DNA from: an uncultured Gemmiger sp.
GTDB lineage: Bacteria > Bacillota > Clostridia > Oscillospirales > Ruminococcaceae
DNA length: 32,766 bases
Direction: 5' to 3'
Assembly: GCA_947628865.1 (NCBI GenBank)
Contig: CANRBN010000004.1
Span: 1-32,766, forward strand
Part shown: in pieces, positions 31,180 to 32,766 of the stretch
How positions within the stretch are numbered: the first letter of the stretch is position 1
Layout of the letters: the number at the start of each line of letters is the position of its first letter
Position numbers and translations under genes: made by a program
Notes under the pieces: model-generated
Seen by the model: the letters and a program-made list of their open reading frames with translations, nothing else
Database searches by the model: none
What the model was told of the DNA's origin: nothing

Positions 31180-32058
31180 TCACAGCTCCGCGGTGAAAGC
31201 GCGCACACGGCGCCAGAATTCCCGCGCGGCGGGCGAGAGCACCGCGCGGTCGAGGCAGGCCATGCCGATATCGCGCGAGAACGCCGGCTCCAGGCGCAGC
31301 ACCTGATAGGCGCGGGCGATCGGCACGCTCTTGAGGATGAGCTCCGGCATGATGGCCATGCCCTGCCCGCAGGCGACCATCGCGATGGTGGATTCGTCGT
31401 CGATGACGTAGCAGCGGGTATCGACGTCGAGGTCGTTCTTTTTCAGGTAGCTCTGGATGTCGGCATCGGTGTCGGCGCGCTGGCTCACAAAGGGGCGACC
31501 GCGCAGCTCCTCGGCGCTGACGCAGCCCGCCCGGGACGGGACGAAATCCGCCGGCGCCACACAGACGAGCGGGTCGTGGTAGAGCGGCTCAAAATCCAGC
31601 TCTCTGGCGCAGGAATCCGACAAAAGGCCGATCTCCGCCGTGCCGTTTTTGATCCAGGCCGCGATGTCAGCATAGCTGCCCTGGTAGAGGCGCAGCTCGA
31701 TGCCCGGGTACTGCGCCTGGAACGCCGGCAGCAGCCGCGGCAGCCAGGCCACACAGGCCGAGTTGAACGCCGCCAGCCGCAGCACGCCCCGGTGCATGCC
31801 GTTGATCTGCTCGACCGATTGATCCAGCGCCTCGCTGCTGGCGAGCAGGCGGCGGATGTCCGGCAGCAGGCTCTCGGCTGCCGCCGTCATCGTGACGCCG
31901 GTCTTGGTGCGGGTGAACAGCGGGAACCCGCACTCCGCCTCCATGCCGGCCACGGCGTGGCTGATGGCCGAGGGCGTGAGGTGCAGCTGCTCCGCCGCGC
32001 GGGCGAAGCTGCCCTCCCGCGCGATGATGGCAAAGATCTGGCAGCCGAGCAGCGTCAT
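31180..32058 (-). CDS. LysR family transcriptional regulator
   Basis: N-terminal HTH CQIFAIIAREGSFARAAEQLHLTPSAISHAVAGMEAECGFPLFTRTKTGVTMT; substrate-binding domain. Confidence 0.95.
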   Translation of the reverse strand: MTLLGCQIFAIIAREGSFARAAEQLHLTPSAISHAVAGMEAECGFPLFTRTKTGVTMTAAAESLLPDIRRLLASSEALDQSVEQINGMHRGVLRLAAFNSACVAWLPRLLPAFQAQYPGIELRLYQGSYADIAAWIKNGTAEIGLLSDSCARELDFEPLYHDPLVCVAPADFVPSRAGCVSAEELRGRPFVSQRADTDADIQSYLKKNDLDVDTRCYVIDDESTIAMVACGQGMAIMPELILKSVPIARAYQVLRLEPAFSRDIGMACLDRAVLSPAAREFWRRVRAFTAEL

Positions 32059-32083: not shown

Positions 32084-32111
32084 GTGAAATCGTTTCACTT
32101 GAAGTGTGAAA
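32084..32111. promoter_or_regulatory. Candidate operator with three GTGAAA/TTTCAC half-sites
   Basis: GTGAAA-TCG-TTTCAC-TTGAAGT-GTGAAA; two overlapping perfect inverted repeats in the LysR 5' region. Confidence 0.5.
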
Positions 32112-32120
32112 AAAATGAAT

Positions 32121-32149
32121 TTTACTTACCGATAACAATATAGTATACT
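32121..32149 (+). promoter_or_regulatory. Putative promoter of the small RNA candidate
   Basis: TTTACT-N17-TATACT on the plus strand. Confidence 0.55.
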
Positions 32150-32166
32150 GAATGCAGAAAAGTCAA
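32137..32166 (-). promoter_or_regulatory. Putative promoter of the LysR gene
   Basis: TTGACT-N18-TATATT on the minus strand, overlapping the plus-strand promoter. Confidence 0.55.
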
Positions 32167-32273
32167 GCGGTATTTCGATACCGCAGATACCATTCTTCTT
32201 CTCTCCCTTTTGGGCGGCGGCCCGCACACCCGCCGCCCGGATCCGCCGGTCCGCACAGCCGGCGGATTTTTTT
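32156..32273 (+). ncRNA. Candidate small RNA (promoter, UUCG hairpin, CU-rich linker, GC hairpin, terminator)
   Basis: GCGGTAT-TTCG-ATACCGC (32167-32184); CCATTCTTCTTCTCTCCCTTTT linker; GGGCGGCGG...CCGCCGCCC (32212-32238); terminator stem 32241-32267 plus T7. No plausible CDS ends upstream of this terminator. Confidence 0.5.
32241..32273 (+). terminator. Intrinsic terminator of the small RNA candidate
   Basis: ATCCGCCGG TCCGCACAG CCGGCGGAT TTTTTT: perfect 9-bp stem and U-tract, plus orientation only. Confidence 0.85.
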
Positions 32274-32306
32274 GTGCGCGGCAGCGCGCAGACGCGTGCA
32301 AAACGA

Positions 32307-32336
32307 TTGTTTTTCCGCGCCGCTTATGCTACAGTA
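32307..32336 (+). promoter_or_regulatory. Putative promoter of the right-edge membrane protein gene
   Basis: TTGTTT-N17-TACAGT with TGC extended -10; weak match. Confidence 0.35.
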
Positions 32337-32370: not shown

Positions 32371-32766
32371 ATGTTCAAGGTGCAGAAAACGGTAAAAACG
32401 CGCGGCATGCGCGGCGCGGCCACCCAGTGCGCGCTGGCCGCGCTCGGGTATCTGGCGGCGCGCCGGGTGCTGCGCGCCTTTTTCTCGTTCTTGATGGGCC
32501 TGCGCGTGCCGGGCGCCACGCTGGACGCCCCCGTCGGCTACACGCCGGCGGCGGCGGCGCTGCTCGCGCTGGTGGCGGCCACGGCGGCGCTGGCGGCGCC
32601 GGTGGCGTGGCTGCTGCTCGCCACACGCCTGCAGCCGCGCGATCTGCGCCTGCTGCTGCCCAGCCAATGGGCGCCGGGCTGGTGCCTGGGCATCTTTCTG
32701 GGGCTGGCGAACCTGGGCAATCTGCTGGGCGGGGTGTTCAACCGCCTTGCGGGCAAGACCCCCGGC
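32371..32766 (+). CDS. Predicted membrane protein (partial, runs off right edge)
   Basis: ATG after GAAAGAGG; MFKVQKTVKTRGMRGAATQCALAALGYLAARRVLRAFFSFLMGLRVPGATLDAPVGYTPAAAALLALVAATAALAAPVAWLLLATRL...; hydrophobic segments, open to the edge. Possibly a CPBP-type protein, not demonstrable here. Confidence 0.65.
   Translation, partial: MFKVQKTVKTRGMRGAATQCALAALGYLAARRVLRAFFSFLMGLRVPGATLDAPVGYTPAAAALLALVAATAALAAPVAWLLLATRLQPRDLRLLLPSQWAPGWCLGIFLGLANLGNLLGGVFNRLAGKTPG

Follow-up and report, generated by a model that had tools for sequence, protein, structure and literature searches.

The window (the whole 32,766-nucleotide stretch of DNA analysed here) carries, head-to-head with a LysR-type regulator gene, what is very likely a conserved autonomous small-RNA gene of the genus Gemmiger (Table 1). 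The explanation that we consider probable is that the two genes form a single unit, in which LysR would activate a trans-acting RNA whose exposed CU tract blocks ribosome-binding sites without the help of Hfq. Judged from its sequence, the RNA family is uncatalogued, in the sense that it has no Rfam match, but belongs to a functional kind already known. The genus is common in the gut, and an RNA present in single copy with a defined regulator, operator and seed is testable at once; moreover, a GcvA/GcvB-like arrangement in a lineage without Hfq provides an unusually clean unit of regulator, operator and RNA.

The original prediction had described most of the parts of this locus: a promoter, a hairpin GCGGTAT-TTCG-ATACCGC, a pyrimidine tract, a GC hairpin and a terminator with T7, a divergent LysR gene, and a plus-strand coding sequence near 32371 that begins ∼98 nt past the terminator and may have its own promoter. 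All of these were recovered in place, the last having a candidate promoter (TTGTTT at 32307, 17 nt, TACAGT at 32330) that is a reading of the sequence and falls below the threshold of the promoter scan. The main addition made here, which the original prediction did not see, is that LysR very probably controls the RNA.

Table 1. Features of the LysR–small RNA locus (positions in the window).
Feature	Position	Strand	Evidence
LysR-type regulator gene	31180..32058	-	Pfam HTH_1 + LysR_substrate
LysR-type box TGAAATCGTTTCA (TGAA-N5-TTCA, T-N11-A)	32085..32097		Constant spacing to RNA -35, 34/34
Second operator element TGAAAAAAATGAA, activation-site position ∼-44	32107..32119		Conserved in alignment
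RNA promoter TTTACT-N17-TATACT (-35 at 32121-32126, 17-nt spacer, -10 at 32144-32149)	32121..32149	+	34/34 loci; promoter scan
LysR promoter TTGACT-N18-TATATT, overlaps RNA promoter	32137..32166	-	34/34 loci
Small RNA, predicted start ∼32156, end in T run	32156..32273	+	CM R1 match in its own genome, E 5.1e-7; fold
5' hairpin, 7 bp, UUCG loop, lineage-specific form	32167..32184	+	Fold
C/U-only single-stranded tract UUCUUCUUCUCUCCCUUUU, proposed anti-Shine-Dalgarno seed	32193..32211	+	Unpaired probability
Second hairpin, loop CCCGCACAC	32212..32238	+	Fold
Intrinsic terminator, loop CCGCACA, T7	32239..32273	+	Compensatory changes; scan

The distribution of the RNA follows that of the genus. The covariance model (CM) R1 matched once and only once in 34 of the 35 Gemmiger genomes, every one of the 19 good ones among them, and under stricter filters gave no match in 294 other genomes of the order Oscillospirales; a match in G204 (E = 0.013, among 40 other genomes of the family) is a loop hairpin lacking the CU tract and was taken as chance. 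A blastn search with 32100–32300, a check proposed with the original prediction, returned matches in ten other genomes of the genus, always just upstream of an orthologue of LysR. When an alignment of LysR was scanned against 84,980 species genomes, 33 close loci were obtained (L020–L052), almost all from organisms named Gemmiger or relatives, and the RNA arrangement lies upstream of LysR in every one of them as well as in the window (34/34), always head-to-head. The LysR orthologues beside the RNA show 63–84% identity in other Gemmiger loci and ∼45% in two more distant loci. This orthologue is similarly restricted, with only distant homologues found outside the genus in the family sample, and none of the eight loci searched around distant LysR genes (∼34%, rumen Clostridia) contained the RNA; a phage collection likewise gave no match. 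The original prediction had not recognised the family, and a search of the window and seven loci against Rfam yielded no family match either at the gathering threshold or relaxed to E = 1. Within the literature collection searched in full text, no paper joined Gemmiger with sRNA, or Faecalibacterium prausnitzii with small RNA and LysR.

Several features of the intergenic region point to the regulator. The RNA promoter consists of TTTACT, a 17 bp spacer and a TATAAT-like hexamer in 34/34 loci (TATGAT in 22 of them). Upstream of it stands a TGAA-N5-TTCA box, with one or two positions deviating in a few species, whose centre lies ∼-66 from the predicted RNA start and whose distance to the promoter is constant in 34/34; a second element, TGAA-N5-TGAA, follows at ∼-44. 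The start sites behind these numbers are predictions, and the measured quantity is the spacing of the boxes. On the minus strand of all 34 loci the LysR promoter (TTGACT-N17/18-TAYANT) entirely overlaps that of the RNA, and it accounts for two conserved words that might otherwise be assigned to the transcript: AAGTCAA, which is invariant and lies close to the 5' end of the RNA, corresponds on the opposite strand to the -35 box of LysR, and a conserved ACTGTA also belongs to the LysR promoter. For the same reason GAAAGTCAA, which had been considered as an RNA seed, was ruled out as the LysR -35 of the other strand. The LysR promoter is shifted by 8 bp in L050/L051 and by 3 bp in L025 while the distance between box and RNA promoter is unchanged, and thus the box is phased to the RNA. 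It is likely, in our estimation, that the adjacent LysR activates the RNA.

Across the 35 genomes the operator pattern TGA-N6-TTCA-N9-TGAAAA occurs once in 31, is absent in three and occurs twice in one (the only second copy in the genus lies at G017:C85:249035-249062), and a control with the reversed pattern gave zero in every genome. Given that the operator is present about once per genome, this LysR probably has the RNA as its chief or sole output, apart from degenerate sites that would escape a pattern search.

The RNA itself ranges by species from ∼70 to 125 nt (68 nt in L035), and conservation throughout the genus extends to the operator, the promoter, the CU tract and the GCACA-looped terminator. 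The predicted RNA of the window (32156–32280) has a folding energy of -51.6 kcal/mol, where shuffled sequences give -38.9 ± 3.9 (z = -3.3), and one shuffle in 200 folds as well. A tract of 10–19 nt made up only of C and U is present in 34/34 RNAs and is followed by the terminator. Its sequence varies between clades, and its predicted probability of being unpaired is 0.70–0.97 over the 34 RNAs as compared with 0.39–0.66 for the RNA as a whole. The anti-Shine-Dalgarno segment originally proposed is therefore upheld on the side of the RNA, being C/U-only and mostly unpaired in all 34, whereas its pairing with targets is putative.

The hairpins had also been expected to be conserved and to covary, and this holds for the terminator stem but not for the 5' and middle hairpins as such. 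There are 29 distinct terminator stems, in which 241 of 261 cells are paired when pairs are counted on a loop-anchored register, a choice made because the MAFFT alignment places one clade's terminator in the wrong columns. Double changes that keep the pair occupy 39 cells (shuffle mean 13.4, maximum 23), and none of 1000 shuffles reaches either the paired count or the double-change count; this shuffle ignores the relatedness of the sequences, which is kept in a control with slid registers, where the signal collapses. Neither the UUCG hairpin nor the middle one occurs beyond the window genome and at most two close relatives, and a second hairpin with the position and loop seen in the window is found only in the window genome and L020. 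Across the loci the 5' hairpin varies, bearing UUCG, GAAA or GCACA loops, and the 68-nt RNA of L035 has none.

The sequence itself shows the gene, how it is conserved and structured, and its terminator, promoters and operator, whereas the activating role of LysR, the pairing with ribosome-binding sites and the repression are what we infer. In this picture LysR would bind TGAA-N5-TTCA at -66 and the second element at ∼-44 of the RNA promoter; with inducer bound it would switch the RNA on, and it would repress its own overlapping promoter. The transcript would stop at its own terminator, leaving the C/U-only tract exposed, and the tract could then pair with purine-rich ribosome-binding sites of mRNAs and block their translation, independently of Hfq.

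What this mechanism leaves unexplained is the repeated GCACA loop. The motif is contained in the terminator loop of 34/34 RNAs (as CCGCACA in 31/34), and a further hairpin with a GCACA loop is present in 23/34, where shuffles gave a mean of 2.2 and a maximum of 8; some RNAs reach three (L027, L033, L049). In the window the CCGCACA loops are at 32251–32257 (terminator) and 32222–32228 (hairpin 32212–32238). Within one RNA and across species the repeated loops sit on unrelated stems and at different positions. The possibility that CCGCACA is a general terminator loop was rejected, as it is not so in the window and occurs near the control level elsewhere in the genomes. The repeated motif may point to a novel RNA partner, and in a rather unlikely elaboration the RNA, switched by LysR across the genus, would be bipartite, combining a CU seed that acts on mRNAs with GCACA apical loops, that of the terminator included, to which a novel RNA-binding protein or RNA partner binds in place of Hfq.

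Decoys such as CsrB/RsmZ work with GGA loops, and the same loops could be taken to mean that the RNA is mainly a decoy of this sort for a protein recognising GCACA apical loops, the CU tract being secondary. The invariance of the terminator loop, its recurrence on unrelated stems in 23/34, the fact that it is no general terminator loop in the window and its near-control level elsewhere in the genomes would fit a decoy; however, the CU tract is universal, the eleven RNAs with a single GCACA loop would make a poor sponge, and we know of no protein that binds the motif, so that a decoy appears unlikely. It is less plausible still that the transcript is idle and that an overlapping promoter and terminated transcription just tune lysR expression. 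The two promoters overlap completely, so the firing of one excludes the other, as such tuning would have it, but the tract, the compensatory changes of the terminator and the loop sequence are selected beyond the needs of a mere terminator, and we regard an idle transcript as improbable.

An alternative that the original prediction had itself raised is that the RNA serves the downstream membrane-protein gene, as its leader or attenuator. The gene that comes next in the same direction encodes, in the window as in many relatives, a CPBP-type membrane protease (PF02517, Rce1-like/CPBP, in L045); the copy in the window (32372–32766) is incomplete because the window ends at the contig end. Elsewhere, however, the next gene encodes a PHP-domain or DUF6056 protein, and at seven loci that make up one clade (L023, L026, L030–L032, L036 and L038) a convergent gene ends towards the RNA by our reading of the sequence, where the alternative fails. 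A strong terminator also separates the RNA from the gene, which has promoter-like hexamers of its own. Since neither promoter nor tract nor terminator is lost where the gene downstream is a different one, the RNA is not a leader; on these comparative grounds such a role is excluded as its general function, and we give it very little credence as the explanation. The autonomy originally claimed for the RNA is borne out by the same 34 LysR-linked loci, in which promoter, CU tract and terminator are kept despite the differing downstream gene, and further by the covarying terminator stem and the single copy per genome. Least credible of all is a small-protein gene or dual-function RNA, as the short ATG frames that lie inside the RNA in some species show no conservation of position, length or sequence among the nine RNAs listed, and L035 has none.

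The favoured unit of LysR and trans-acting RNA has parallels in two known systems. In the gcvA–gcvB pair of Enterobacteria, operators at -65 and -43 are combined with overlapping promoters and autorepression (PMC5002191), and the Gemmiger locus shares with it the divergent LysR and RNA genes, the overlapping promoters, the operator positions and the single RNA gene per genome. The feature that typifies this class, a LysR box phased to a divergent RNA promoter, was found in 34/34 loci. However, the Rfam model of GcvB has no match up to E = 1 in the window or seven loci, and hence the Gemmiger RNA is not a GcvB homologue. No NCBIfam equivalog reaches its cut-off with the Gemmiger LysR, which is far below that for GcvA; the GcvA box is ATTAG-N5-CTAAT rather than TGAA-N5-TTCA; and the Gemmiger system differs in having a CU-rich seed and no Hfq. 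The box does have the TGAA-N5-TTCA arrangement of MetR sites (TGAAnnTnnTTCA; PMC5002191), but judged by its NCBIfam cut-off MetR is not what this LysR is (66.6 against 382 bits for L048), and no metE neighbour was seen.

The second parallel concerns the seed. Pairing of C-rich motifs with Shine-Dalgarno sequences has been documented for RsaE, FsrA, RNAIII and LhrC, and LhrC, which has its motif in three places (loop A, linker and terminator loop), does without Hfq in the case of lapB (PMC4132741). The Gemmiger RNA shares with the CU-rich (UCCC) LhrC, RsaE and FsrA of Firmicutes a single-stranded C/U stretch between hairpins that is suited to Shine-Dalgarno masking. It differs from them in sequence and in regulator (LhrC is under LisRK), in that its loops are CCGCACA and not a CU motif, and in that a strict UCCC is missing in some clades (UUCCUUCCUC); Rfam gave no match to families of this type, whether the gathering threshold was applied or relaxed to E = 1.

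Hfq (PF17209) was found in none of the 35 Gemmiger genomes while control genomes were positive, so any small-RNA regulation in the genus must be Hfq-free. On balance, it is fairly probable that the RNA uses its CU tract to act on ribosome-binding sites. In targeted pattern searches no gene emerged as a target shared between clades, and pairing of the RNA with the ribosome-binding site of the LysR gene itself is hardly better within than between species. Matches to GGAGGGAGA-N-ATG (rpsE, a khpB-like gene and others) were rejected as ordinary Shine-Dalgarno sites. In clade B, the reverse complement of the tract together with a start codon led to argB, an oppC-like gene and a cysteine-desulfidase-like gene. 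All gene names among these candidates, rpsE and khpB-like included, come from a reading of the protein sequences, and only in the oppC-like case from a family search. The cysteine-desulfidase-like gene (L190/L200, G046) has in G046 a 17-nt perfect complement of the clade-B tract and its flank that spans the gene's ribosome-binding site and start codon, and was set aside as a target because the complementarity is not conserved in orthologues. The argB-like (L181, L183) and oppC-like (L187, L194, L195) genes are possible targets: in two or three related species their ribosome-binding sites are complementary to the clade-B tract but for one or two mismatches.
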